DNA from: an uncultured Altererythrobacter sp.
GTDB taxonomy: Bacteria; Pseudomonadota; Alphaproteobacteria; Sphingomonadales; Sphingomonadaceae
DNA length: 26,193 nt
Reading direction: 5' to 3'
Assembly: GCA_946886175.1 (NCBI GenBank)
Contig: CAMPIA010000003.1
Span: 1 to 26,193 of the forward strand
Below the pieces are notes generated by a model that was given only the letters and a program-made list of their open reading frames with translations, did no database searches and was not told the DNA's origin. This document shows, one piece after another, positions 12,813-26,193 of the stretch. Position 1 is the stretch's first letter, and each line of letters starts with the position of its first letter. Made by a program: the position numbers and the translations under genes.

Positions 12813-15122
12813 TTAGGCCGCGAAACGGGCTTTCAGACTGTGCCGATCTTCGAGCAGGGCCGCCACCTCTCCCGCCGGAACCGGGCGGCTGAACAGGAAG
12901 CCCTGGATGAACCGGCATCCTTCCTGCCGCAGCACGTCGAGCTGGTCCTGTTCCTCGACCCCTTCCGCCAGCGTATCCATGCCCAGCGCATCGGCCAGCG
13001 TGGTGATCGCCCGGATCACCGCGTGGGCGTTGCCGCCCTTGGACAGGTCCTCGACGAAGCTGCGGTCGATCTTGACCTTGTCGAACGGGAACGAGCGCAA
13101 GTAGCTGAGCGAGGAATAACCGGTCCCGAAATCATCGAGCGCAATGCGCACGCCCAAGTTGCGCAGACCGTGGAGCGCCGACAGCGTCTTCTCGACGTTG
13201 GCGATGAAGATGCTCTCCGTAATCTCCAGTTCCAGACGCTGCGGCGGAAGGCCGCTGGCGGCGAGCGCCTGGAGGATGGTCTGCGACAGGCCCGGCGTGG
13301 CGAACTGCTTGGGCGAGACGTTGACCGCGACCGAGAGTTCGTCGGGCCATTGCGCCGCCTGATGGCAGGCCTCGCGGATCACCCAGTCGCCGATCGGCAT
13401 TATCAGCCCGGTTTCCTCGGCCAGCGGGATGAAGTCGAGCGGGCTGATCATGCCCAGTTCGGGATGCGGCCAGCGGATCAGCGCCTCGAAGCCCTGGAGC
13501 CGTTCTTCGGTGAGGCTGTAGAGCGGCTGAAAGTAGAGCTCGAAGCCGCCCTCGCGCAGGGCGAGACGCAGATCGAGCTCCATCTGTCGCCGCCGCCGCG
13601 CCTGTTCGTCGAGCGCGGGTTCGAAGAAGTGATAGGTCGACTTGCCTTCGCCCTTCGCGCGGTAGAGCGCCAGGTCGGCGTTCTTCATCAGGCTGATGCC
13701 ATCGGCCCCGTCTCCGGGCGCCACGGCGATGCCCAGGCTGGCCGAGCAGTCGGCCTGCTGGCCATCGAGTGTGACCGTGCGCTGAAAGCAGGCCTGGACG
13801 CGGTCTGCCAGCGCGGCGAGGTTCTCGCCCTTGTCGATGTCATGAATCAGGATCGCGAATTCGTCGCCGCCCAGGCGGGCGATCGTCGCCTCGGGCAGGG
13901 CCGCGCGCAGATATCCGGCGACGTCGCGCAACAGGTCGTCGCCGGCCGGATGGCCGAGTGTGTCGTTGACGACCTTGAAATCGTCGAGGTCGACGTAGAC
14001 GACCATGAGCCGCTCGTCGCCGGGCAAGCGCGCGAGCGCCTGCTCGAGCTGTTCAACGAACAGCTTGCGGTTGGGCAGGTTGGTCAGTCCGTCATGCAGG
14101 CCGACATGGATGATGCGCCGTTCGCGCTCCTCGATCGCGGCGACCATCGAATTGAAGCTGGTGGCGAGGCGGCCGATCTCGTCGTCGGTGTCGGCGGACA
14201 GCGCGACTTCGCGCCCCTCTCCGATCATCCGCGTGGCCTCGTCCAGTTTCTGCAGCGGGCGCGTGACGGTGCGCGCGACGCGCCAGCTCAGCACCACGAC
14301 CAATGCGATCGCCCCCAGCGCGAGCGCGGCGAGCAGGTACTGCAGCCCGGCATATTCCGCCAGCGATGCGCTGAGCGAGTGACGCAGGATCAGCCGCGGC
14401 TCGAGACCGTCCTCGAGCGCGGGGATCGCGGTCAGCTGGTAGAGAAAACGTTCGTCCGATTCCCGTTCGAACACCTCGCCCTGGCGCGCTTGCTTCATCC
14501 AGATGGGCAGGCGATCGGCCGATGCGACCTTGGCCTGCACGTCGATGGCGGCGAGCTGCGCCAGCCGCTCGAGCTCGGCCCGGTCGAGCGGCTGCGCGAG
14601 CATCAGCCAGCCGATCAGGTCGGGCGCCTCGACCGGCGATGCGGCGGCAAGCGCCAGCCGGTCGCCGACGCGGATGATCCCCTTCTCGCGCCCTTCGTCG
14701 AGCGGATACCATAGCGCCTCGGCCGAAGGGATGCGTGCGTCGCCGGAGGCAAGCAGCGTTCCGTCCAAACCCACGACGAAGGCCGCATCGGTCTTGGATC
14801 GGGACTTGAGACTGGCGAGCGCGCTGTCGATTGTGGCCCCGTCTTGGGTGGCGACCGCTTCGCGAAATCCGAAATCGCGAGCGAGGACATCAGCCGAACC
14901 GCGCATCTGCCGCGCGCGCAAGTCGAGCAATTCGTCGAATACCCGCGCATTGGCCTGGAGGTCGCGTGTGGCGTTCGCTTCTGCGAACCGGTCGAGTTCG
15001 TTGCCCGCAATCACCACGATGACGGCAAGGACTGCCGCGAACAGGCCCGCATAGAGCACGGTGATCCGCACCTTTAACGAACCGAAGCGCAGCTTGTCCA
15101 TGTTCGCGAGCGTGCCGGTCAT
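12813..15122 (-). CDS. Membrane GGDEF-EAL c-di-GMP enzyme with periplasmic sensor and HAMP
   Basis: Bifunctional cyclic-di-GMP protein, 769 residues. TM1 lies at about 20-40, a periplasmic sensor region at 41-258 (double-Cache-like, uncertain), TM2 at 260-280 and HAMP at about 281-335. The diguanylate cyclase domain (about 338-500) has an intact RLGGDEF at 416-422, but the RxxD inhibitory site upstream is absent (LPEA in its place). The phosphodiesterase domain (about 515-765) has FEALIRW (EAL 546-548), NVSPKQF, EITES, DDFGTGYSS (663-671) and LAEGVEE, so hydrolysis should also work. Its ATG overlaps the stop of the upstream cupredoxin gene (ATGA), so the two are translationally coupled; the sensor may read the periplasmic state linked to that protein. 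Which activity dominates cannot be told. Confidence 0.92.
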   Translation of the reverse strand: MTGTLANMDKLRFGSLKVRITVLYAGLFAAVLAVIVVIAGNELDRFAEANATRDLQANARVFDELLDLRARQMRGSADVLARDFGFREAVATQDGATIDSALASLKSRSKTDAAFVVGLDGTLLASGDARIPSAEALWYPLDEGREKGIIRVGDRLALAAASPVEAPDLIGWLMLAQPLDRAELERLAQLAAIDVQAKVASADRLPIWMKQARQGEVFERESDERFLYQLTAIPALEDGLEPRLILRHSLSASLAEYAGLQYLLAALALGAIALVVVLSWRVARTVTRPLQKLDEATRMIGEGREVALSADTDDEIGRLATSFNSMVAAIEERERRIIHVGLHDGLTNLPNRKLFVEQLEQALARLPGDERLMVVYVDLDDFKVVNDTLGHPAGDDLLRDVAGYLRAALPEATIARLGGDEFAILIHDIDKGENLAALADRVQACFQRTVTLDGQQADCSASLGIAVAPGDGADGISLMKNADLALYRAKGEGKSTYHFFEPALDEQARRRRQMELDLRLALREGGFELYFQPLYSLTEERLQGFEALIRWPHPELGMISPLDFIPLAEETGLIMPIGDWVIREACHQAAQWPDELSVAVNVSPKQFATPGLSQTILQALAASGLPPQRLELEITESIFIANVEKTLSALHGLRNLGVRIALDDFGTGYSSLSYLRSFPFDKVKIDRSFVEDLSKGGNAHAVIRAITTLADALGMDTLAEGVEEQDQLDVLRQEGCRFIQGFLFSRPVPAGEVAALLEDRHSLKARFAA

Positions 15123-15736
15123 CGCAACTGCACCGATAGCTTGCGCGACCTGTTGCCGCCGGCCACGGTCACGGCCTGCGTCGTCTCGTTCGCCGGCGCG
15201 CGCAGGCGCGGATGCCAGACGATGAGCTTCGCCGGGCCGGTGGGAAGCGAATTCAGCGTAACGTAACCGTTGTGATCGGTCTTGCCCGCAAACGGCGTCT
15301 CCACGATCCGGATATAGCCGCGCATGCCGTCATGGATATTGCAGCCCAGCGCCACCGTTCCGGCGATGGGAAAGCTCCGGGTGCGTGTCTGATCGCGTCC
15401 GTAGAGATCGATCGTGAAGCGCGCAGGCTTGGAAAAGCTGTAGATGGAATGCCGAATTCGGTCGAGATTGGGGAAGGCGACCGTGCTGCCCTTGGCCACG
15501 ACCAGTGTTCCAGGAACGAATTGCAGATCCTTTTGCGCCACCGCCATCCGCCACGGGAACCTGATGGCACCCGATCCGCCGCCGGCCGCATCAAGTTCGA
15601 CCACCGCATCGCGCACGGGCACTCCGCGCTGGTCGACCACTTGCACCCGCAGCGATGCGCCGGAAGCAGCGTGGACCGCGAAGCCGACGAAGCCCAGCAA
15701 CGCGGCCAGCGCGAAACAGGAATTACGCAAGTGCAT
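15119..15736 (-). CDS. Periplasmic cupredoxin-like protein (annotated in relatives as methylamine utilization protein)
   Basis: An exported 205-residue protein. Residues 1-27 form a Sec signal peptide (ends HAASGA). The domain at about 28-148 has a cupredoxin pattern with type 1 copper ligands in the right order: His96 (RIRHSIYSF), Cys132, His135 and Met138 (GCNIHDGMRGY). Residues 150-205 form an extra beta-rich tail (KTDHNGYVTLNSLPTGPAKL). Relatives are called methylamine utilization protein, but no methylamine dehydrogenase genes are here, so that name should not be taken as function; single-electron transfer or copper sensing is more likely. It is the first gene of a two-gene operon with the GGDEF-EAL protein and is divergent from the DUF3034/haemoglobin operon across an 85-base gap. 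Confidence 0.82.
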   Translation of the reverse strand: MHLRNSCFALAALLGFVGFAVHAASGASLRVQVVDQRGVPVRDAVVELDAAGGGSGAIRFPWRMAVAQKDLQFVPGTLVVAKGSTVAFPNLDRIRHSIYSFSKPARFTIDLYGRDQTRTRSFPIAGTVALGCNIHDGMRGYIRIVETPFAGKTDHNGYVTLNSLPTGPAKLIVWHPRLRAPANETTQAVTVAGGNRSRKLSVQLR

Positions 15737-15821
15737 CGGGGCGCCATAGGGGCGGGGCGTTAAGATTGTTGGCTCGCCGCGTTAGAAGCGATTTAACCAT
15801 AGTCGGCTATTGGGCCTGTCC
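15737..15821. promoter_or_regulatory. Divergent promoter region of the cupredoxin and DUF3034 operons
   Basis: Only 85 bases separate the two divergent start codons, so the promoters must lie close or overlap and could share one regulator. No convincing -35/-10 pair or palindrome is visible. Confidence 0.4.
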
Positions 15822-16697
15822 ATGCGAATGGCGGCGACAATCGGCACCAGCCTCCTTATCATGGCGTCCGCGCAGGATGCGCATGCGAAGGACATCGAAT
15901 GGTTCGCGGGCGACAAGCTCGTGCTTACCAACGGCGTCTCCACGATCGAAGGGGCGAGCGGTGGCGGTATCGCCGCCTGGTCGACGATCGCCGGACGCGC
16001 CACCGAAAGCGGCATCGGCGTGTCGGGTCATGTGACGATTATCGAATTGCCGGATTACGGATGGCAAAGCCATGGCGTCTCTGTCGGCGTGCTGAACCGG
16101 GTCGAGCTGTCCTACGCACGACAGAATTTCGACACCCGCGATGTCGGCGCCGGACTCGGCATCGGGCAGGGCTACACGCTCAACCAGGACGTGTTCGGCG
16201 CGAAAGTGCGGCTGTTCGGCGATCTGGTTTACGGCGATCCGCTGGTGCCGCAAGTGAGCGTCGGCGTGCAGCACAAGCGCTCGCTTGATGGCGCGGTCGC
16301 CCGCGCGGTCGGCGCGGCCGACGAGGAAGGCACGGACTTCACGCTGAGCGCGACCAAGCTGTTGCTCGCGCAGAGCGTGCTGGTGAACGCCACCGCGCGG
16401 CTGACCGAGGCCAACCAGAACGGCTTGCTCGGCTTCGGCAGCGCGGCGGGGCAGGGCTATTCGCTCCAGTTTGAAGGATCGGTCGCTTACCAGTTCTCGC
16501 GCCGCTTCGTCGTCGGCGCGGAATTTCGCACAAAGCCCGACAATCTCGGGCTCGGAGAGGATAACTGGCTCGACGTGTTCGCGGCTTACGCGGTAACCGA
16601 CAACCTGACCTTGACCGCCGCCTATGCTGATCTCGGCTCGATCGCCACGTTCGAAGACCAGCGCGGCGCCTTCCTGTCCGCGCAAGTCGCATTCTGA
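15822..16697 (+). CDS. DUF3034 family outer-membrane beta-barrel protein
   Basis: An uncharacterised exported protein of 291 residues. The start is uncertain between TTG 15810, ATG 15822 and ATG 15828; ATG 15822 gives a signal peptide (MRMAATIGTSLLIMASA) cut after DAHA. The mature part shows the DUF3034 signature: WFAGDKLVLTNGVSTIEGASG near the start, RVELSYARQNFD, DVFGAKVRLFGDLVYG, and LTLTAAYADLGSIATF near the end. Alternating strands and a C-terminal phenylalanine (AQVAF) suggest an outer-membrane barrel. It leads a two-gene operon with the truncated haemoglobin 13 bases on. Its role is unknown; the neighbourhood points to a periplasmic redox or gas-linked process. Confidence 0.8.
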   Translation: MRMAATIGTSLLIMASAQDAHAKDIEWFAGDKLVLTNGVSTIEGASGGGIAAWSTIAGRATESGIGVSGHVTIIELPDYGWQSHGVSVGVLNRVELSYARQNFDTRDVGAGLGIGQGYTLNQDVFGAKVRLFGDLVYGDPLVPQVSVGVQHKRSLDGAVARAVGAADEEGTDFTLSATKLLLAQSVLVNATARLTEANQNGLLGFGSAAGQGYSLQFEGSVAYQFSRRFVVGAEFRTKPDNLGLGEDNWLDVFAAYAVTDNLTLTAAYADLGSIATFEDQRGAFLSAQVAF

Positions 16698-16710
16698 GGG
16701 ACCTGCTGAG

Positions 16711-17241
16711 ATGTTCATTGCCACCGCCACCGCCCTGCTCCTGCTGCAACAGACACCGGCCGAGGACATCGACTGGGACAAGGAATTCGGCGTAGAGGAA
16801 CGCGAGCGCGATCCCGCGACCGGCGAATTTCCGGTCGACCCCTACGAGCAGAGCAATGCCAATGCGGGCGCGAAGCCGTTCGACGGCACGAGCATGGCCG
16901 AAGCCTTCGGCGGCCAGGACGGCATCCGCCGCATCGTCGACCGCACGGTGAACACGAGCGAGGCCGACCCGCGCATCTCCGAAATCTTCGTTGCGCACGA
17001 CATGGTCCGCCTCAAGCGCACCCTGTTCGAACAGTTCTGCTACATCCTCGACGCCGGCTGCGACTATACCGGCCGCGACATGGTCGCGGCGCACAAGGAC
17101 ATGGGCCTGCGCATGTCCGACATGAACGCGCTGGTCGAAAACCTGCAACAGGCCATGCGCGAAGAGAACGTCCCCTTCGCCGCCCAAAACCGCTTCCTAG
17201 CCAAGCTGGCGCCGATGTCGGACAATGTAATCGAACGGTGA
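16711..17241 (+). CDS. Exported group 1 truncated haemoglobin
   Basis: A 176-residue globin with an N-terminal export signal (MFIATATALLLLQQ), so it probably acts in the periplasm, unlike the usual cytosolic truncated haemoglobins. Residues 22-56 are an acidic linker (DKEFGVEERERDPATG). The globin part covers about 60-170: FGGQDGIRRIVDRTV (helix B), FEQFCYILDAGCDYTGRDM, and AAHKDMGL with His128 as likely proximal haem ligand. Family roles are O2 or NO binding and NO dioxygenation. The open frame runs 29 codons further upstream into the DUF3034 gene, but ATG 16711 is chosen because it begins the signal peptide and lies 13 bases after that gene's stop. Two additional cysteines (110, 117) could form a disulfide. 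Confidence 0.85.
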   Translation: MFIATATALLLLQQTPAEDIDWDKEFGVEERERDPATGEFPVDPYEQSNANAGAKPFDGTSMAEAFGGQDGIRRIVDRTVNTSEADPRISEIFVAHDMVRLKRTLFEQFCYILDAGCDYTGRDMVAAHKDMGLRMSDMNALVENLQQAMREENVPFAAQNRFLAKLAPMSDNVIER

Positions 17242-17468: not shown

Positions 17469-18322
17469 TCAGCCGCCCTCTATATCCCCGGATCCAGAAC
17501 TCAGCGTGATCAGATTATCTGGTTCGGAGGCAAACCAAGCGTAGCTGCCCCAGGCGAGGCTGCTCACGGTCTTCCGAAAGGTAGCGGAGCCGCGATCGAG
17601 GAAGGCGGTCACGAACGCAACATTCTTCGGAGAGAAACCTGCTTGTTCGGCGATCTGGAGCAGTGCCCTCTTGCGCGCTTCATTGACCGGACCGTCGGAG
17701 TGAACAACTTCCACGAACACGAGCAGTGGATGGGCAGGGCCCAAGTCGACTAGAACAATGTTTGGCAAACTCCTGACGGCCGGGTAAGCCCGATTGCTCG
17801 GGCGAGTTCGTCGTCTCCGGCGACAACCTTGTTGCCACTTTCGCTGAGGGTGAACACGCCAGACTTGGCGAGAAATGTCGGAGCGAAGACCTCGATCACT
17901 GCCCTGAAGAGATCTGAACTTGGCCCTGCGGACATCCGCCGCTTCTCTCCGTTCGGGAACGTAACCAACTGGTGATCCCCGCCGGCCGCAGCCCCACGCC
18001 GCACGATTGCGATACGTGCGAGAGCGCCTGCGTTCAAATGGGTTCTCTGCCAAGCGGCTATTCTGGCTTCCAGTGCTTCCGCGCTCAAACCCGGGACAAA
18101 CAGCTCGGCAAAATCGCTCTCGAGCGCATAGCGCCCAGCTGGTGACGTCGTTGCCAATCCCGTTCGTTCGATCACTGAGCCGTTCTGGATCAGGGCGTAG
18201 CGGATCGTGTCGTCGCGAATGGATTCCCGGGTGTTCATCCTGAGCGCCTTTGTGAACCGGAGGTCCTGCCAGATGCGCTGGAAACCTTCAGCAGTTGGAG
18301 AGCAGCATCGAAGCCCTAGCAA
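17469..18322 (-). pseudogene. Frameshifted BsuBI/PstI-family type II restriction endonuclease
   Basis: Two overlapping minus-strand frames together encode one BsuBI/PstI-type enzyme (CTGCAG specificity in the type members). The upstream frame supplies MNTRESIRDDTIRYALI, ALARIAIVRRGAAAGG, TFPNGEKRRMSAGPSS, AVIEVFAP and LSESGNKVV and runs to LARAIGL at 17786. The downstream frame then continues SLPNIVLVDLGPAHPLLVFVEVV, followed by GFSPKNVAFVTAFLDRG and LAWGSYAWFASEPDN, to the stop at 17469. The shift lies in 17772-17785, 14 bases where a multiple of three is expected, i.e. one base lost or two gained. The N-terminal domain is also incomplete: the frame closes at a TAA near 18398. No partner methyltransferase is nearby, so this is a dead relic rather than a working system, unless the frameshift is a sequencing error. 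Confidence 0.82.
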
Positions 18323-18659: not shown

Positions 18660-19031
18660 ATGAAAACAATTCTGGTCGCCGATGACGAGCCGCTCCTGAC
18701 CGAGCTGCTCGAATATCGCCTCGCTGCTCGCAATTATCGCCCGGTGATCGCACGCGATGGCCGCGAAGCTCTAGCTCGTCTGGAAGATTCGGCGCCCGAT
18801 GCCGTGGTGTTGGACGCGATGATGCCGGTTCACGACGGTTTCGAGGTTCTGCGCCGGATACGAGCGTCGGACAGACGTGCGCGCACACCCGTGATCATGC
18901 TCACCGCGCGCAGGGGCGAGAAGGACATCGTAAGCGCGCTCGAGCTCGGCGCGAACGACTACCTCCTAAAGCCGTTCATGCCCGAGGAACTGCTCGCGCG
19001 GCTGGCGCGATTGCTGAAGGATTCCGAATGA
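18660..19031 (+). CDS. Single-domain response regulator (receiver only)
   Basis: A 123-residue CheY-like receiver without output domain. The acidic pocket (Asp8, Asp9), phosphoacceptor Asp52 (VVLDAMMP), Thr82 (IMLTA) and Lys104 (LLKPF) are all present, so it should accept phosphate and signal by protein contact. It is the first gene of the operon and its stop overlaps the YaiO-like gene start (ATGA). Its likely phosphodonor is the HPt protein encoded convergently at 22509-22790, as no other transmitter is close; its likely targets are the membrane proteins made by its own operon. Both are inferences. Confidence 0.9.
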   Translation: MKTILVADDEPLLTELLEYRLAARNYRPVIARDGREALARLEDSAPDAVVLDAMMPVHDGFEVLRRIRASDRRARTPVIMLTARRGEKDIVSALELGANDYLLKPFMPEELLARLARLLKDSE

Positions 19032-20050
19032 AATCACGGGGTGCGCCACTTTTTCTTGCGGTCGCAGTCGTTACTGCCGCGCCGATCGCGGCACAGGAGG
19101 GACGGCCCTACGAGGAAGCCGTGGCCGCCCGCCAATCGGGCAACCCAGCACGGGCTGCGGCACTGCTTGAACCATGGGTCGTCGCTCATCCCGAAGATCT
19201 CGATGCCCGCCTGCAACTCGCTTTTGCCCGGCTCGCGCTCGGCGAGCTTGATGATGCGGAAGCGGACTTTCGCGCGGTGCTGGCCGCAGCGCCAGAGTAT
19301 CGCGACGCGCAGGATGGGCTCGACCGCGTTGCTCAGGCGCGCGTATCGGAAGCGGGTGCGCAGAGCAGCTTCGTGATCCTCGAAGGCGCGCTCGCCGATC
19401 TCTCCGGAAATCGGCAGGGCTGGCGCGAGTTCGCGGTCGCCACAGCGGTTCCGACCGATGCGCAGACCACGATCGATGTCCGCGGCGCCTACTATCGCCG
19501 CTTCGGGCTCGACGACATCGAACTGGCCGCCGGGGCAACCCGCCATGTTTCGCGCGATACCTGGGTGCGCCTGGGTGCTTCCGCGACACCTGGCGCAGAC
19601 TTTCGCCCGAAATGGGGTGTGAGCGGAGGAGTTGACCAACGCTTCGGAAGCGGCGGAAGCGCGACCGTGCTTGGCGTCGACTTGCGTTATGAAGAATTTC
19701 CCTTGCAGGACGTCATCACGATCTCGCCGCAGCTGACCCGCTATTTCGCGGGAGGTCGCATGTCGGGAACCTTGCGAGCTACAGGGACGGTGGTCGATGG
19801 TCGTTCGATCCAGCCAGGCGGCCTCGCCCGACTGGACTACATGCCGAGCGACCGCACACGCATCCACGCCGGGATCGGCTATGGGCCAGACACCGATCTG
19901 GGCGTCGCGACCGACACCACCTCGTTGTTCGGGGGCGTCGAATTCCCGGTTTCGGACCAGATCTCTCTGGTCGGAGGGTTATCGCACGATCGGCGCGAGG
20001 ACGACCTGGACCGGACCGAGGGGCGGCTCGGTATCAAGGTCGGGTTCTAG
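19028..20050 (+). CDS. YaiO-like outer-membrane protein: TPR plus beta-barrel
   Basis: A 340-residue exported protein. A signal peptide (MKSRGAPLFLAVAVVTAAPIAA) is followed by two to three TPR-like helical pairs at about 27-110 (YEEAVAARQSGNPARAAALLEPW; LQLAFARLALGELDDAEADFRAVL). Residues 112-340 are a 12-16-strand barrel with alternating pattern, ending in Phe (GIKVGF), as in the YaiO family of outer-membrane proteins. In E. coli, yaiO lies beside a GT2 gene (yaiP). TPR plus barrel is also the design of polysaccharide exporters PgaA and BcsC, so export or anchoring of the polymer made by the GT2 of this operon is the natural hypothesis. ATGA overlap with the receiver gene shows coupling. Confidence 0.8.
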   Translation: MKSRGAPLFLAVAVVTAAPIAAQEGRPYEEAVAARQSGNPARAAALLEPWVVAHPEDLDARLQLAFARLALGELDDAEADFRAVLAAAPEYRDAQDGLDRVAQARVSEAGAQSSFVILEGALADLSGNRQGWREFAVATAVPTDAQTTIDVRGAYYRRFGLDDIELAAGATRHVSRDTWVRLGASATPGADFRPKWGVSGGVDQRFGSGGSATVLGVDLRYEEFPLQDVITISPQLTRYFAGGRMSGTLRATGTVVDGRSIQPGGLARLDYMPSDRTRIHAGIGYGPDTDLGVATDTTSLFGGVEFPVSDQISLVGGLSHDRREDDLDRTEGRLGIKVGF

Positions 20051-20056
20051 CGGCCC

Positions 20057-21082
20057 TTGGTTGCGCTCGTCACTCTCTGGAATGCGTCGGTCCTGCTCTG
20101 TCTTGCAGGCGCAATCGCGCTGGTCGCGTTAATCGCGGCGCGGGGAATCGCGCAGATCACAGATCGAAGGCGGATCGACGCGCGTCGCAGGCTCGCACCG
20201 CTGCTGATGGGCGGCGCGGCGCCGGCGCAGCGCCTTGGGCGACTGGAAGGGCAGGTCGCTATGGACCTGACGATCGAGCTCGCCGAACTCACGCGCGGTT
20301 CGGATCGCGAAGCGATGCTGCGTGCTAGCGAGAGTCTCGGGATTCCGCGGCTTCTGATACGCCGGTTGCGTGCTCGGGCCGCTCAGGACCGGCTTGCAGC
20401 CGCAGAAACGCTCGCGCATTTCCCGGGCTATGCGCACGAGGCCGTGCGCGCGCTCGACGATCGCAATCCAGATGTGCGTCTTGGCGCCGCACTTGCGCTC
20501 GCGCGTCACGAGGAAGGTCCCGCGCCTGCGGAAATCGTTCGCAAGCTTCGGCCAGGCAGCGAGGAACACTCGCTGTTGCTCGTATCGCTGATGCGCGACC
20601 TCGCCGATCGCGATCCAGCGGCAATCGAAGCGTTGATTTTCGACAGTACAGCTGAAGAAGAGACGAAGCTGGCAGCGATCGATGCACTCGCCTCGCTCGG
20701 CTATGCACATGCTCAACTGCTCGCATATGTCGCTCAGGAAGCTTGGTCGAACCCAACCCGTCACGCGCGCGTACTGCGCGCGCTGGGGCGTACCGCGCAT
20801 CCCGCTGCCAGGATCGCGATCGGCGACGGGCTCGACAGCGAGGACACGATCGTGCGTGCGGCGGCGGCCGAAGCGGCCGCGAATGCGCGCATGGTCGAAA
20901 TGACCGACAAGCTCGGAGCTCTGCTTGACGACTCCGACTGGCGTGTGCGCTTCAACTCGGGGCAGGCGCTTCTGAAGCTCGGACCAGCAGGCATGGAAAT
21001 GATGCAGGCCCGCGCAGAGTCGCGCGATGCGTTGGCGAGTGAGGCGGCACGCATCATGCTGGCCGAAGCGGGTCGTACATGA
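20057..21082 (+). CDS. Membrane-anchored HEAT-repeat protein
   Basis: A 341-residue protein with one N-terminal hydrophobic helix (about 5-29, LWNASVLLCLAGAIALVALIA) followed by a basic stretch, so the rest is probably cytosolic. From about 100 to 335 it is built of HEAT/PBS-lyase-type helical repeats with the usual core (DDRNPDVRLGAALALARH; LLDDSDWRVRFNSGQALLKLG). Such repeats are scaffolds for protein contacts. It starts with TTG at 20057, 6 bases after the YaiO-like gene, and its stop overlaps the GT2 start (ATGA). A role as docking platform between the receiver protein and the synthase is a guess from the operon; no enzymatic motif is seen. Confidence 0.78.
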   Translation: MVALVTLWNASVLLCLAGAIALVALIAARGIAQITDRRRIDARRRLAPLLMGGAAPAQRLGRLEGQVAMDLTIELAELTRGSDREAMLRASESLGIPRLLIRRLRARAAQDRLAAAETLAHFPGYAHEAVRALDDRNPDVRLGAALALARHEEGPAPAEIVRKLRPGSEEHSLLLVSLMRDLADRDPAAIEALIFDSTAEEETKLAAIDALASLGYAHAQLLAYVAQEAWSNPTRHARVLRALGRTAHPAARIAIGDGLDSEDTIVRAAAAEAAANARMVEMTDKLGALLDDSDWRVRFNSGQALLKLGPAGMEMMQARAESRDALASEAARIMLAEAGRT

Positions 21083-22512
21083 GCATGCCATTCCTGCCCG
21101 GTGCCGAGGCGTGGATGGTGCAGGCTGCCGAGACGATCGCTTTGATCGTCATCGCTACCGGACTGCTGCAGACGGGCTTTTACATCGTTCAGCTCGCCTA
21201 CGCCGGATATGCGCTGGCCACGCGCCCGCCGGTGACGCGAAGCGCGACGTTATGGCGTCGCTACTCGGAACAGGCGCCCTCGATCGCGGTGCTCGCGCCG
21301 GCATTCAACGAAGACCTTACGATCGTCGAAAGCGTTCGTTCGCTGCTCGCGCTGCAATACCCGGATTTCGAGGTCATCGTGATCAACGACGGCTCCCGAG
21401 ATGGAACGCTCGAAACCCTGAGAACCGAATTCGGTCTGCGCCGTGTATCACGCTATGTCGACCACGCCGTCGCGCATGCGCCGATACGCGGCTTCTACGC
21501 CTCGCCCGACATTCCGCGCCTGATCGTCATCGACAAGGAAAACGGCGGCAAGGCCGATGCACTCAATGCCGGAATCAACTGCTGCCGGGCGGACCTGTTC
21601 TGCGCGATCGACGCCGACTCCATTCTCGAAGCCGATGCGCTGCTACGCGTGGTTCGCCCGTTCATTGACGAGCCGCACCTCACCGTTGCGGCAGGCGGCA
21701 CGATCCGGATCGCGAACGGCTGCAAGGTCGACGCCGGGCGCATTGTCGAAATCCATCTCCCGACCAATTTCCTCGCGCTGGTGCAAATCATGGAATACTT
21801 GCGCGCCTTCCTCATGGCGCGGCTCGCACTCGGCAAGATGCAGGCATTGACGGTGATCTCGGGCGCTTTCGGGCTCTTCGACCGGCGCAGGGTGGTCGAG
21901 GTCGGCGGCTACAGCCACGGCACCGTCGGCGAGGATATGGAACTGGTGCTCAAGCTCCATCGCCATCTGCGAGACGAGCGGATCGACTACCGCATTGAAT
22001 TCATCGCCGAACCGGTCTGCTGGACTGAATGTCCCGACGACGTGCGGGTGCTTTCGCGCCAGCGCGCCCGTTGGCAGCGCGGAGCGCTCGAATGCTTCGC
22101 CAAGCACAAGGCGATGGCGCTCAACCCGTGCTATGGCCGGATCGGAATGATCGGCTTCGGGCAGATCCTCCTGGTCGACGTCGTCGGCCCGCTCGTAGAG
22201 ATTATCGGGTATCTCCTGGTTCCGTTGCTGTGGGCTCTGGGCCTGCTCGCGCTGTCGTGGCTCCTCGGCTTTCTCGCGGTGACGTTCACACTGGGAGTGT
22301 TCGTGTCGATGGCGACGCTGGTGCTCGAGGAGATTCAGCTGCGGCGATTTACCCGCGCACGCGAAATAGCGGTGCTGGCTTTTATCGCGGTGATCGAGAA
22401 CTTCGGTTATCGGCAGATTTCGAATCTGTGGCGCTTGCAAGGCTGGTGGCAGTTTCTGCGCAAGCACCAGGGCTGGGGCACGATGACCCGCAAGGGGTTC
22501 AAGACGAGCTAG
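21079..22512 (+). CDS. Processive membrane glycosyltransferase family 2, PgaC/cellulose-synthase-like
   Basis: Inner-membrane polysaccharide synthase of 477 residues. N-terminal membrane segment at 14-45, catalytic domain at about 65-340, and three or four C-terminal membrane helices (345-425). All processive GT2 signatures are present: NDGSRDGT (103-110), DADS (178-181), GED (284-286) as the catalytic acid, and QRARW (328-332). The order resembles PgaC, NodC and hyaluronan synthases, which extend beta-linked hexosamine polymers and export them through the same protein. No PilZ domain is fused, so any c-di-GMP control would need a partner. Product unknown; no deacetylase such as PgaB is present. 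It is the last gene of the operon and overlaps the convergent HPt gene stop by 4 bases. Confidence 0.9.
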   Translation: MSMPFLPGAEAWMVQAAETIALIVIATGLLQTGFYIVQLAYAGYALATRPPVTRSATLWRRYSEQAPSIAVLAPAFNEDLTIVESVRSLLALQYPDFEVIVINDGSRDGTLETLRTEFGLRRVSRYVDHAVAHAPIRGFYASPDIPRLIVIDKENGGKADALNAGINCCRADLFCAIDADSILEADALLRVVRPFIDEPHLTVAAGGTIRIANGCKVDAGRIVEIHLPTNFLALVQIMEYLRAFLMARLALGKMQALTVISGAFGLFDRRRVVEVGGYSHGTVGEDMELVLKLHRHLRDERIDYRIEFIAEPVCWTECPDDVRVLSRQRARWQRGALECFAKHKAMALNPCYGRIGMIGFGQILLVDVVGPLVEIIGYLLVPLLWALGLLALSWLLGFLAVTFTLGVFVSMATLVLEEIQLRRFTRAREIAVLAFIAVIENFGYRQISNLWRLQGWWQFLRKHQGWGTMTRKGFKTS

Positions 22513-22790
22513 CTCGGGAACTGCCCGCAGGCTTCCAGCATGCCATCGAGTACGGCGGCCGGGGATTCGAGGTCGCGCCCCTCTTCCGCCGCCATTTCGA
22601 GTGCGAGCGCGGCGTCTGTCACCTCGGGATGCCCGAGCATGCCGGCCAGGCCAGCCAGCTTGTGCGAGATGTCGCGGACGGCAATGAAATCCCCGGCCGC
22701 CAGCGCTTGAGCCAGCGCCGCACGATCCGCTGCCGCGCGTTGCCCGAACCGTGCCGAAAGCGCCGCGAGATGCGCATCGAGCGCAGTCAC
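22509..22790 (-). CDS. Histidine phosphotransfer (HPt) protein
   Basis: A 93-residue four-helix HPt module. The phosphorylated histidine is His43 in ISHKLAGLAGMLGHPE, the typical HPt helix. It passes phosphate between the receiver of the hybrid kinase and stand-alone receivers. Its gene is third in a three-gene operon, each gene overlapping the next by 4 bases, and it overlaps the convergent glycosyltransferase stop (CTAG at 22509-22512). Confidence 0.88.
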   Translation of the reverse strand: MTALDAHLAALSARFGQRAAADRAALAQALAAGDFIAVRDISHKLAGLAGMLGHPEVTDAALALEMAAEEGRDLESPAAVLDGMLEACGQFPS

Positions 22791-23152
22791 GGAAGAAGAG
22801 CCCGCACCTGGCTCGCGAGCGAGACGGGGTCAAAGGGTTTGGCTATCACGCCTTTCGCGTCCAGCGTGGCGAAAGTCTGCAGTTCCGATCGCTGCGCACG
22901 GGCCGTTACGAACGCGACCGGCAGATCGCGCAACGCCGGAATTTCGCGCATGCGTTCGAGCAGAGTCGGCCCGTCCATTTCCGGCATCGTCACGTCGAGC
23001 AACGCGATATCCGCAGGCCATTCGGCCAGCACGGCCAGCGCCTCGCGACCCGACGCAGAAGTCCGGACTTCGAGCTCGGGATCGAGCCCCAGCGCAAGTT
23101 CCACGATCTCGCGGATGTCCGCCTCGTCGTCGACATAGAGAACCCGTATCAT
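22787..23152 (-). CDS. Single-domain response regulator
   Basis: A 121-residue CheY-like receiver with Asp8/Asp9, phosphoacceptor Asp53 (ALLDVTMPEMDG), Thr83 (FVTA) and Lys105 (IAKPF), all intact. It lies between the hybrid kinase and HPt genes with ATGA overlaps on both sides, so the three proteins should be made together. No output domain; it may compete with or pass on phosphate from the HPt protein. It is not closely similar to the receiver at 18660-19031. Confidence 0.9.
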   Translation of the reverse strand: MIRVLYVDDEADIREIVELALGLDPELEVRTSASGREALAVLAEWPADIALLDVTMPEMDGPTLLERMREIPALRDLPVAFVTARAQRSELQTFATLDAKGVIAKPFDPVSLASQVRALLP

Positions 23153-25254
23153 GCCCGGCCTCCTCCTTTTTCATGCAGCAGAGTCCTCAACGTCGCGACC
23201 AGATCCTGAATCGTCGACCGGCTCTTGATGAGCACGGCATCGGCAGACGCATCGGCGTGCTGGTCGTCGATGGCGCTGAAAAGCACTATCGGGATGCTCT
23301 CGTCCTGCGCGCGTAGAAGCGGGATCAGTTCCGTGCCGTCGTCATCACGCAGGCCAACATCGATGATTGCGCCAGCCAGTGGCTGGCTCGCGATGACTTC
23401 GCGCGCTGCCTCGATGCTCGCTACGGATACGATCCTTGCAACTTGGTCGAACGCGCTTCGGGTGACGCTCAGGCAGTCGCGGTCGTCATCGACATGCAGC
23501 ACCAAGGGAAGCCCGCGCCCACCTTTTGATTCCACCTGGTCGGGCGTGAGGATCGGCATCCTCAGGCAGAACACCGTGCCGCCACCGACCCGATCGTGAA
23601 AGTCGATCGATCCGCCGTGCCGTTCGGCGATTTCGCGCGCAATCGATAGACCGAGACCAGTTCCGCCGCGCTGCCGACTGTCCGAGCCGTCGGCCATGGC
23701 GAACTTGCCGAATATCCGTTCCCGGAAGGCAATTGGGACGCCGGCACCGCGATCGCGCACTTCGATTACAACCCATTTGCCTTCGGTGAATGCGGCGACC
23801 TCGACCGTGCTTCCATGGGGGGAGTACTTGATCGCGTTGGAGACCAGGTTGGTCAGCGCCTGTTCGAGCCTGTCCGCGTCGCCGCGCACAAGTATGGTCT
23901 TGTCGCAACCGTCGGTCGCAAGGGCAACGCCGCGCCCATCGGCATACGAAGCGTTGGCAGCGGTCATTCGCACGACGAGGCGGCAGATATCCAGCTCTTC
24001 GTGGGCGAAATACATCTTGCCCGCCTCGATTTTCTCGATGTCGAGGATGTCGTTGATCAGTCGGATCAACCTCTCGCAATTGCTGTGCGCGATCGCGACC
24101 AGGCGATCGGCCTTTTCGTTGAGCTTGCCCACCGCGCCCGATGCGAGCAGTCCCAGCGATCCGCCGATCGAGGTCAACGGCGTACGCAATTCGTGGCTGA
24201 CGGTTGAGACGAACTCATTCTTCATCGCCTCGGCATGTTTGAAGTCGGTGATGTCGCGAACAGCCGCGACGTAGCGCCGTTCGCCCTGGTCCGGAACGAG
24301 GCTGATCGCGACTTCGGTTTCGAACGTGGAACCATCGGCTCGCAGGCCTTTGAATTCCTGCCGCTGACCCGCGCCGTGCTCGCCGGCAGAGCCGACCGTT
24401 TCGAGCCATGCGCGGCTGGTCTTCAGGTCGAAGGGATTGGCCATCAACTCGGTGTTGTGGCGGCCCAGCAGTTCTTCTTCGCGATAGCCGAACATTCGGA
24501 AGATGCTGGGATTTGCGCCGCGAATGTTTCCGGTATCATCGAGCAGCAACATGCCGTCGACTGCGCCGTCAAACATTGCCGCCTGGCGCGCGGCCATCCG
24601 GTTTGCGCGGCCCAGGGCCTGCTGGCGCTCGCGACTGGTCCGTCCGATCAGCGCAGCCGCTCCTGCCAGCAGTAGTGCGATGCCGATCAGCAGCATCGTA
24701 ATCGTGAATTCGAGATTGGCCCGCAGTCCCTGCCCGTGCTGGGTAACCCCCTCGAGACGGGCCGCCTGAACCGCGTCGAGCGCAGCTATTTCTTGCCGAA
24801 CCGTATCCATGACGCGCTTGCCGACACCGGATGCGATCCTTGCTCGCGCTGCCTCCGGCATGTTCGCCTGCATATCCTCGATGCTCTCGCGAGCGAGCGC
24901 AATCTTTCGGTTGGACGTCTCCTTGAGCCGGGTCAGCTCGCGCATCGATTGCTCATCGCCCCGCACCGCCGTGTGCAATCTGTCGAACAGCCCTTCGCGC
25001 TGCTGCATCGCGGTTTCGTACGGCTGGAGAAACTCGTCATTGCCCGTCAGTACGTAGCCGCGCACGCCCGTTTCAGCGTCGAGATGGAGCACAAGCAGGT
25101 CAGCCAGTGCCGCCCGGGTCTCTACCGAGGCCTCGACCGTCGCGCGCAACCTGCGGTTGTCGTCGAACTCGCGATCGATCAGGATCTGAACACCAAGTAG
25201 CGCCAGAGGGATCAGAATAATCCCGACCACGGACCCGGCCCGACGAATGAGCAT
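23149..25254 (-). CDS. CHASE3 hybrid sensor histidine kinase
   Basis: A 701-residue membrane kinase: TM1 at 7-26, CHASE3 extracytoplasmic sensor at about 30-170 (HLDAETGVRGYVLTGNDEFL), TM2 at 183-203, PAS at about 222-340, HisKA with His354 (VSHELRTPL), HATPase with N-box NLVSNAIKYS (Asn473), DRGAG (501-505) and GTGLGLS (531-537), and a C-terminal receiver (585-695) with Asp632. The receiver is somewhat diverged: Ser660 replaces the usual Thr, while Lys677 remains. All kinase motifs are intact. With the receiver and HPt proteins of the same operon it makes a complete phosphorelay. The CHASE3 ligand is unknown. The start ATG 25254 has only a weak ribosome binding site. Confidence 0.92.
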   Translation of the reverse strand: MLIRRAGSVVGIILIPLALLGVQILIDREFDDNRRLRATVEASVETRAALADLLVLHLDAETGVRGYVLTGNDEFLQPYETAMQQREGLFDRLHTAVRGDEQSMRELTRLKETSNRKIALARESIEDMQANMPEAARARIASGVGKRVMDTVRQEIAALDAVQAARLEGVTQHGQGLRANLEFTITMLLIGIALLLAGAAALIGRTSRERQQALGRANRMAARQAAMFDGAVDGMLLLDDTGNIRGANPSIFRMFGYREEELLGRHNTELMANPFDLKTSRAWLETVGSAGEHGAGQRQEFKGLRADGSTFETEVAISLVPDQGERRYVAAVRDITDFKHAEAMKNEFVSTVSHELRTPLTSIGGSLGLLASGAVGKLNEKADRLVAIAHSNCERLIRLINDILDIEKIEAGKMYFAHEELDICRLVVRMTAANASYADGRGVALATDGCDKTILVRGDADRLEQALTNLVSNAIKYSPHGSTVEVAAFTEGKWVVIEVRDRGAGVPIAFRERIFGKFAMADGSDSRQRGGTGLGLSIAREIAERHGGSIDFHDRVGGGTVFCLRMPILTPDQVESKGGRGLPLVLHVDDDRDCLSVTRSAFDQVARIVSVASIEAAREVIASQPLAGAIIDVGLRDDDGTELIPLLRAQDESIPIVLFSAIDDQHADASADAVLIKSRSTIQDLVATLRTLLHEKGGGRA

Positions 25255-25958
25255 TACTTGATGCGACGCCTCTTGCTGTGACCCGCAGGTCCGCTGGTTC
25301 GTTCAATGAAACCCTAGGCGCCTTGATTGCAGACGTCACTAAGAGAGCCACTTAGCCAGGATGTCGCCCGCAGCACATATTGAAAGCGGGCCGACGAAAA
25401 TCAGCGCATAATGCGGGCCGTAAACTTTCGCGACGAGCGACTTGGCTACTTTGGGGCCGGAAGCTGTCCGACTGCTTCATAGCGGCTGAGCCGAAGAAGC
25501 GGACATTGTTACCCGCGTCGCCGTGAACGGCTCGATCTGGCCGACACTGTTGAAGAATTTAGCTTTCGGATAAGCGCGTCGTCGACCCATGCTGGGGGCG
25601 AGCGCGATTGCCCTGCTCAGCAAGCACGACCTGCGCCGGCATCGGGATCTGAGCTTCCGTAGGTTCTGTCCTGCGGCGGCAAAATGGAGTTCCTCACTGG
25701 GGCCTGGGCACTCCTAATCGTCGCCGGTCGCCGAGCGGCACACGCCAATCGCACCTGTCCTAAAGCCTTGTGCTCGACCATGTCTGGCGAAAACGTAAGG
25801 TTGTTCCGGGATTTAGGCGGGGGATTGGCTTCACTATGGTGGGGGCAACAAGTTCGATGCCACGGCGTCGATGGTCGGGTATGGGCGAACAGGCAGGACG
25901 GCCACCGCGTCGAGTGCCCCGCATGCGAAAATCCAGCGCTCGTGCTCGGCGAGCCGAT
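25255..25958. other. Degenerate intergenic region
   Basis: About 700 bases with no gene that I can support. It should contain the minus-strand promoter of the kinase operon at its left end. Bases 25480-25570 include AGCGGACATT (25498-25507), an inverted form of a motif also seen near 17291. A plus-strand frame at 25684-25986 has a CPAC motif but no start signal and lies opposite degenerate sequence. The area looks like eroded accessory DNA. Confidence 0.4.
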
Positions 25959-26158
25959 CGGCGACCCATGTGCGTCGATCGTATAGCGCCGTGCGATTGT
26001 CTCGCGCCCTCCCATCCTGAATTGAAGGACGTAAGAGATACTTCCTGAAGGAGTGATCTTGGCACCAAAACCTTTGAGATCAGTGTCCCAAAGGAACTGG
26101 CTTGAGCTGCCAGCCTCGAGCACATCTATCGATTTTTTGTGATTTTTCCTGTTGCCAT
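25959..26158 (-). pseudogene. N-terminal remnant of a tyrosine integrase (DUF4102-type)
   Basis: The minus strand encodes the arm-type DNA-binding N-terminus of a phage/island integrase: MATGKITK starting at ATG 26158, then, one frame over, KSIDVLEAG, FLWDTDLKGFGAKITPSG, SYVLQFRMGG and RRYTIDAHGSP, ending near 25959. The two pieces join if a run of six A (near 26132-26137) is read as seven, so a single-base deletion in a homopolymer broke the gene early. After HGSP the family resemblance stops and no catalytic domain (R..HxxR..Y) follows, so the gene is also truncated. It marks the edge of a former mobile element; no attachment site or tRNA gene is visible. Confidence 0.75.
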
Positions 26159-26193
26159 CCGGAACCTCGTGTCCCTTTTCTGGCAATCACCGG

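Follow-up and report, generated by a model that had tools for sequence, protein, structure and literature searches.

A candidate polysaccharide secretion cassette built around a receiver, a membrane-anchored HEAT protein and a family 2 glycosyltransferase

A stretch of 26,193 nucleotides from an uncultured Altererythrobacter sp. (contig CAMPIA010000003.1; the whole stretch is called the window below) carries seven genes, in two convergent operons, that we interpret as a polysaccharide secretion cassette facing its own phosphorelay. The synthase operon, on the forward strand, begins with RR1, a stand-alone receiver with the phospho-acceptor Asp52 (18660-19031; Pfam Response_reg, 1.5e-28). It continues with a protein that joins tetratricopeptide repeats (TPR) to a YaiO-type outer-membrane beta-barrel, a predicted exporter (19028-20050; TIGR04390, 1.3e-24; TPR_19, 8.7e-6), with a protein consisting of an N-terminal membrane helix and a HEAT-repeat solenoid that is predicted to be cytoplasmic (20057-21082, TTG start; HEAT_2, 3.1e-12), and with a membrane-embedded family 2 glycosyltransferase (GT2), a predicted processive synthase (21079-22512; Pfam GT2, 2.4e-21). 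The kinase operon, on the reverse strand, encodes a hybrid histidine kinase with the architecture CHASE3-PAS-HisKA-HATPase-REC (23149-25254; His354, REC Asp632; identified by Pfam, CHASE3 at 2.9e-28), a second stand-alone receiver, RR2 (22787-23152; Asp53; Response_reg, 2.5e-23), and an HPt phosphotransfer protein (22509-22790; His43; Pfam Hpt, 2.5e-10).

Two convergent operons and their conservation

All seven genes were verified by open reading frame listing, Pfam and NCBIfam. Four-base overlaps join RR1 to YaiO, HEAT to GT2, the kinase to RR2 and RR2 to HPt, and 6 bases separate YaiO from HEAT, so that the coordinates, gene order and translational coupling given in a preliminary description of this DNA were borne out. 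That description had also claimed that the two operons end in the same four bases, and indeed they meet tail to tail in a CTAG at 22509-22512, which is common to the stop codons of GT2 (forward strand) and HPt (reverse strand). Such an overlap leaves no space for a terminator between the operons, whose transcripts may therefore run into each other. A promoter scan found none, and terminators scored below the shuffled mean.

A scan of species genomes with six short peptide patterns of the GT2 yielded 59 loci and recovered only part of the family. We define as close relatives the 19 loci (L001-L019) with 75-82% GT2 identity, nearly all of them sphingomonad and most from Erythrobacteraceae. All seven genes are present in 19/19 according to tblastn, the HPt of one locus (L005) having been found in a later residue check. 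The two operons are convergent in 18 of these loci, the exception being L006, whose kinase operon has the same orientation as the synthase operon and lies upstream of it. The four-base tail-to-tail overlap recurs in 14 of the 18 convergent loci, and the other 4 have gaps of 1-9 bases. The HEAT and YaiO proteins are only 42-51% identical (best segments) across the 19.

A GT2 clade with a HEAT partner

The motifs DGS (residues 104-106), DxD (178-180), GED (284-286) and QRxRW (328-332) of the GT2 are invariant in 14 aligned members from several phyla, in agreement with the earlier assignment to a processive type with all catalytic motifs. Its best curated profile is that of PgaC/IcaA (TIGR03937, 6.2e-39), although the score of 134.1 bits lies below the cut-off of 422.3. 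The structure model (predicted local distance difference test, pLDDT, 85.4) is that of a membrane-embedded synthase, and its best Foldseek matches are hyaluronan synthase, followed by Chs1 (chitin) and BcsA (cellulose), with the archaeal mannosyltransferase 6yv7 at rank 11; a sequence search against solved structures gave weak, partial matches only. The fold is thus nearest to processive synthases, and the closer affinity to non-processive families that could have spoken against the earlier assignment did not appear. The enzyme is therefore predicted to be processive and to make an exported polymer.

To survey the family, we used a GT2 profile (A1) made from 14 seed sequences, which came from loci already known to carry all or part of the set. 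It was run on whole genomes with a cut-off of E 1e-60, and the neighbourhoods of most matches, together with named loci, were then scanned with profiles. Each group takes its name from the anchor genome used in the search, and the anchors, which are known carriers, are counted among the genomes. Matches at this cut-off occur in 15/196 genomes of the sphingomonad order, 70/296 of Bacteroidota, 15/398 of Pseudomonadota, 49/296 of Actinomycetota and 13/116 of Chlamydiota, and a tblastn search of the GT2 against 72,556 plasmid records gave 13 at E <=1e-60. Loci were fetched for 14/15 matches in the order, 72/78 places (71 loci) in Bacteroidota, 11/13 new ones in other Pseudomonadota, 40/53 new places in Actinomycetota, 16/17 in Chlamydiota and 11/13 plasmid records. 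The matches left out, two of them full-length but weaker (G599, G809), were for the most part weak, cut or broken, or else near-copies. Order and Bacteroidota loci with a 1.5 kb flank (L063-L093) enter the HEAT counts and stand outside the receiver, kinase and YaiO counts. The repeats L063, L069 and L070 were left out of the pairing counts, and L027 also out of the trees and spacing measurements. Since L064 and L066 are identical to L007 and L015, their removal turns 169/180 into 167/178 and 163/168 into 161/166 in the figures below; the candidate-frame figure of 169/179 and the helix test of 169 HEAT frames still include all five repeats.

The 180 loci were picked by synthase similarity and not by HEAT. 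A HEAT frame lies directly before GT2 in 167 of the 178 distinct loci (169/180 before repeat removal), and a further 7 of the 180 have one at another place in the sequence fetched. The arrangement holds for the window (1/1), named alphaproteobacteria (22/22), the order sample (13/13), other Pseudomonadota (11/11), Bacteroidota (69/69, and 5/5 named), Actinomycetota (38/40, and 3/3 named) and 7/16 Chlamydiota. The HEAT seed profile, before iteration, already found 163/179 candidate frames. As a control, 28 loci of other GT2s from the same pattern scan hold no HEAT frame (0/28). By eye, from their frames, several of these control loci resemble pga operons. In 163/168 measured loci (161/166 without repeats), the HEAT gene runs into that of GT2 with an overlap of 1 or 4 bases or is separated from it by at most 30 bases, and in one locus of the Actinomycetota sample (L122: 6956-9769, reverse strand) the two share a single 938-aa frame, in which GT2 could have its own start.

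On plasmids, a HEAT frame precedes GT2 in 11/11 fetched loci (51-220 bits), whose carriers include three haloarchaea (Salinirubellus, Haloarcula and Halosolutus), one Deinococcus and two Bacillota. In Salinirubellus, the receiver, HEAT and GT2 genes successively overlap by four bases. Plasmid HEAT-GT2 pairs with no receiver match are those of Deinococcus radiophilus, Planococcus, Paenibacillus (no genes listed) and Bacteroides finegoldii. In the Planococcus locus, which has no receiver, the pair is preceded by genes for a polyphosphate polymerase-domain protein, a DUF4956 protein and a CotH kinase family protein. The constant unit is therefore HEAT-GT2, usually with a receiver, in bacteria and haloarchaea: receiver-HEAT-GT2 recurs in Bacteroidota, Actinomycetota, Chlamydiota and haloarchaea, and HEAT-GT2 without a nearby receiver is also found in Bacillota and Deinococcota. 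Judged by its sequence, the window GT2 belongs to a separate GT2 clade, in which a predicted membrane-anchored HEAT protein almost always accompanies the synthase. In the literature searched, which lacked most subscription papers, we found no published description of the receiver-HEAT-GT2 set; PMC12419801 and PMC11340318 proved, in the parts of them available, to be unrelated to it.

The model of the window HEAT protein (mean pLDDT 92.6) has a helix at residues 2-52, followed by a solenoid at 62-337. A hydrophobic stretch is present in 167/169 HEAT frames, the test covering each stop-to-stop frame except its C-terminal part, with an N-terminal position shown by the model for the window protein only. 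Basic residues are more numerous after this helix than before it in 155/167 (6 ties, 6 reverse), so that the HEAT solenoid should face the cytoplasm, alongside the receiver and the catalytic domain. PgaB and BcsB are periplasmic, and the preliminary suggestion that HEAT replaces them does not look right, because the predicted topology puts the solenoid on the other side of the membrane; we accordingly rejected HEAT as a periplasmic substitute. The nearest Foldseek matches of the solenoid are artificial HEAT-like binders (alphaRep) and importins, in other words generic solenoids only. We also rejected carriage of HEAT by phages, as a phage collection held no HEAT match at 1e-10.

The window YaiO protein scores 87.4 bits against TIGR04390 (cut-off 32) and 23.3 bits against Pfam YaiO, 0.6 bit short of the cut-off of 23.9. 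Among loci with enough flank, a YaiO-barrel profile match lies within 7 kb in 37/37 Pseudomonadota, 42/47 Bacteroidota, 0/28 Actinomycetota and 0/15 Chlamydiota. Actinomycetota mostly have no such outer membrane, so the absence of YaiO near their GT2 would be expected of an outer-membrane exporter. The loci of Chlamydiota, which do possess an outer membrane, nevertheless lack YaiO near GT2; in three of the Chlamydiota sample (L165-L167) a frame of about 1,800-1,860 aa lies just upstream of GT2, with HEAT elsewhere in the stretch, and in one of these, L165, the upstream protein of about 1,860 aa has TPR domains, which are shown for this locus only. YaiO is thus predicted to be an optional exporter of the cassette.

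As to the sugar, two loci have a GlmS gene downstream of GT2: that of Halosolutus, where a sugar-nucleotide transferase separates the two, and L170 of Bacteroidota. A third GlmS match (L137) is weak and on the other strand. Together with the PgaC-like profile match, these neighbours point weakly to uridine diphosphate N-acetylglucosamine (UDP-GlcNAc), and GlcNAc is our weak best guess for the polymer. In three Bacteroidota loci (L145, L150 and L172) the family GT2 is fused to a C-terminal sulfatase/LtaS-superfamily domain (PF00884), and an LtaS-like PF00884 match occurs in 26 loci (23 sampled and one named Bacteroidota, one Pseudomonadota, and Emticicia), which suggests that some versions of the cassette decorate their polymer.

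Like PgaABCD/IcaADBC, one of the closest known systems, the cassette has a membrane GT2 of similar sequence, for which TIGR03937 is the best profile, and an outer-membrane exporter, as PgaA is. However, its seven genes include no PgaB or PgaD, its operon encodes a HEAT partner and signalling proteins, and E. coli PgaC scores only 71 bits against the GT2 family profile, compared with 388-772 bits for fetched members. With the cellulose system BcsAB(C), which has a TPR/barrel exporter, it shares the processive GT2 fold, but neither BcsB nor a PilZ domain was found in the seven proteins. E. coli yaiO-yaiX-yaiP-yaiS, in which a YaiO-type outer-membrane protein is encoded near a GT2 gene, had been named as the nearest pairing. 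This we rejected, since no HEAT gene or receiver is annotated there and YaiP forms a very long branch in the outgroup, with no match to the family profile at E 1e-20. Of the other two genes of that locus, yaiX carries an IS2 insertion in K-12 and yaiS encodes a putative deacetylase.

Receivers, kinases and flanking genes

Among 144 loci whose upstream flank measures 2.9 kb or more, 117 have a receiver gene 0.9-4.2 kb upstream of GT2 on the same strand: the window (1/1), named alphaproteobacteria (22/22), the order sample (8/8), other Pseudomonadota (9/10), Bacteroidota (35/46, and 4/4 named), Actinomycetota (29/35, and 2/2 named) and Chlamydiota (7/16). A same-strand receiver also precedes GT2 in 7/11 plasmid loci. 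None of the 28 control loci has one (3 of them with less than 2.9 kb upstream), and 2 have a receiver on the other strand more than 5 kb away. In 65 of the 91 loci outside Pseudomonadota that have both genes, the receiver gene stops no more than 60 bases from a HEAT start (36/49, 18/30, 3/4, 2/2 and 6/6 in the component sets). Among these core receivers, the phospho-accepting Asp is kept in 127/134 and the Lys in 129/134, and 108/134 are in frames of at most 200 aa. On a receiver tree of 115 columns and 273 rows, in which many forks are unresolved, core receivers cluster, with 15 label changes compared with 82-101 in the ten shuffles printed.

In the window, a phosphorylatable single-domain receiver is thus encoded with the enzyme, and the parts of a multistep relay, a hybrid kinase, an HPt and receivers with apparently intact phospho-residues, are at hand. 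His354, Asp632 and Lys677 of the kinase (the latter two in its REC domain), His43 of HPt, Asp53 of RR2 and Asp52 of RR1 are kept in 19/19 close relatives. PilZ, PgaB-like, BcsB and deacetylase domains were absent from all seven proteins at E values up to 0.1 in Pfam, as the preliminary description had said. Its proposal of phosphorelay control instead of the cyclic di-GMP (c-di-GMP) kind agrees with these findings as far as parts are concerned, since those of a relay are present and no evident c-di-GMP part is; the control itself we infer.

The kinases vary. A CHASE3 hybrid is encoded in the window, GAF kinases at three other loci (L024, L026 and L028) and a multi-REC protein at another (L030). 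In kinase and HPt counts, which cover loci with enough flank and add named and sampled loci of a phylum together, a kinase match lies within 7 kb in 18/20 named alphaproteobacterial loci, 4/8 of the order sample and 6/9 other Pseudomonadota, as well as 20/47 Bacteroidota, 13/28 Actinomycetota and 5/15 Chlamydiota. The corresponding HPt figures are 18/20, 4/8, 3/9, 3/47, 5/28 and 2/15. In wider Pseudomonadota, same-strand kinase/HPt genes lie upstream in L094, L095 and L097 and downstream in L100, L102 and L103, a Mesorhizobium ciceri plasmid locus has the kinase upstream and a convergent HPt, and a Devosia plasmid locus, with its GT2 annotated in two pieces, has receivers upstream and a convergent HPt. 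The two operons, which the preliminary description had expected to be linked in related genomes, are therefore linked in 19/19 close relatives, but linkage is not general, and the convergent CHASE3 kinase operon is an arrangement of close relatives only.

Outside the cassette, a block at 12813-17241 encodes a GGDEF-EAL protein, a small protein with a weak carboxypeptidase-regulatory-like match, a DUF3034 protein and a globin. As this block adjoins the cassette in only one of the 19 relatives (L008), we rejected a fixed unit that includes the window flanks. On the reverse strand at 17469-18322, a BsuBI/PstI-type restriction endonuclease is split over two frames (17750-18322 and 17469-18053, both PF06616) and looks broken; it has no match in the 19 close relatives' loci. 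Beside the kinase, a reverse-strand frame at 25617-26186 has no Pfam match, and its start resembles phage-type integrases by eye, which is unconfirmed.

A proposed receiver-HEAT switch and its alternatives

We propose that the cassette is a synthase-dependent polysaccharide secretion system switched through a receiver and HEAT, with signals passing from the phosphorelay to RR1, from RR1 to HEAT and from HEAT to GT2, a reading to which we give a probability of roughly 60%. The GT2 motifs and fold and the TPR/YaiO barrel support the synthase-dependent machine already recognised in the preliminary description. GT2 would build a polymer, possibly with UDP-GlcNAc or a similar donor, and extrude it across the inner membrane; in bacteria that have an outer membrane, the TPR/YaiO barrel would then carry it outward. 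Phosphate would pass to or from RR1 by way of the CHASE3 hybrid kinase, HPt and RR2, and RR1, when phosphorylated (or unphosphorylated), would bind the cytoplasmic HEAT solenoid. HEAT with RR1 bound would switch the neighbouring synthase, in place of c-di-GMP. The gene content, the domains, the conserved phospho-residues, the recurrent pairings and the topology read from sequence are observations; the RR1-HEAT and HEAT-GT2 contacts, the direction of control and the sugar we infer. Signalling via HEAT is proposed because of the closeness of the HEAT gene to those of GT2 and the receiver, the predicted cytoplasmic solenoid and the locus with HEAT and GT2 in one frame. The step is made plausible by a precedent in Myxococcus, where the phosphorylated single-domain receiver EpsW stimulates EpsZ, the transferase that initiates exopolysaccharide synthesis, post-translationally, according to the available passages of PMC12802240. 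Unlike the window GT2, EpsZ belongs to another enzyme family, being a phosphoglycosyl transferase that works in the Wzx/Wzy pathway, and the same passages mention no HEAT partner.

Several observations weigh against this proposal. A same-strand upstream receiver is absent from 27/144 loci (11/46 Bacteroidota, 6/35 Actinomycetota, 9/16 Chlamydiota and 1/10 other Pseudomonadota) and from 4/11 plasmid loci, so HEAT-GT2 can exist without a nearby receiver. No receiver-HEAT fusion was seen in the scanned loci, and in Pseudomonadota the YaiO gene sits between those of the receiver and HEAT. Core receivers in frames longer than 200 aa (26/134) are not all clearly single-domain, and core receivers fall on several branches of a poorly resolved tree, which are far fewer than expected by chance and do not imply a single origin. 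RR1 could be a phosphate sink or relay intermediate, and kinases and HPts adjoin only part of the loci. HEAT identity to the window protein is 14-17% in five far rows and 25-29% in three others, which also fits a plain scaffold. GlmS stands beside the synthase in two loci only, so that GlcNAc is weakly supported, and the full-length GT2 matches beyond the fetched set (295 bits for G599 and 212 for G809) suggest a clade boundary less sharp than that set implies.

One alternative we consider rather unlikely, though it deserves weight: HEAT may be a structural partner (for stability, assembly or coupling to YaiO), with RR1 acting directly on the cytoplasmic domain of GT2. The pairing of HEAT with GT2 is indeed tighter (167/178) than that of the receiver (117/144), and EpsW is proposed to contact EpsZ directly (available passages of PMC12802240). 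Against this alternative, receiver genes outside Pseudomonadota often end within 60 bases of a HEAT start (65/91), and a cytoplasmic HEAT solenoid, as predicted here, is a typical protein-binding surface. It is improbable, in our judgement, that the receivers act away from the synthase altogether, with the relay controlling expression or another process (motility, stress response), the genes merely co-transcribed and RR1 serving as a phosphate sink or an intermediate of the relay. In favour of this, RR1 lacks an output domain, alternative routes exist through RR2 and the REC domain of the kinase, and EpsW was itself first proposed to be a multistep-relay intermediate (PMC4671073, available part). 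Against it, receiver, HEAT and GT2 are found in one and the same order in several phyla and in haloarchaea, next to kinases of different kinds, as would be the case for a receiver that is part of the machine and not of the sensor.

Equally doubtful is the idea that GT2 makes a glycolipid or cell-wall glycan and not a polymer. The mannosyltransferase among the Foldseek matches would fit it, as would the presence of the family in Actinomycetota and haloarchaea, whose cells mostly lack an outer membrane; set against this are the invariant QRxRW and other synthase motifs, hyaluronan, chitin and cellulose synthases as the best fold matches, and the YaiO-barrel match in every Pseudomonadota locus counted. 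Least probable of all, we think, is that c-di-GMP does exert the control and the phosphorelay supplies a second input, even though the window encodes a GGDEF-EAL protein (12813-15122), a PilZ gene lies about 5 kb from GT2 on an Erythrobacter aureus plasmid, and synthase-dependent systems are often controlled post-translationally by c-di-GMP (available passages of PMC12802240). The GGDEF-EAL block is syntenic in one relative, with weaker matches of the protein alone in 5 others, the seven proteins have no PilZ domain, and the core is present in haloarchaea. Haloarchaea are not known to make wide use of c-di-GMP.

Control by c-di-GMP is typified by the synthase-dependent polysaccharides. A widespread clade whose members usually have a receiver of their own and nearly always a HEAT protein, and which is found in such distant organisms as Erythrobacteraceae, Arthrobacter, Bacteroidota and haloarchaea, would be an instance of another, modular switch. 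It also offers a compact unit of three genes in which receiver control of a polymerase could be reconstituted. Our wider and more tentative suggestion, which we hold at somewhat less than even odds, is that a phosphorylated receiver docking on a membrane-anchored HEAT regulatory subunit is a further synthase switch beside c-di-GMP, common to bacteria and haloarchaea and served by swappable kinases. If this is true, lineages exchange the sensor while the switch stays the same.

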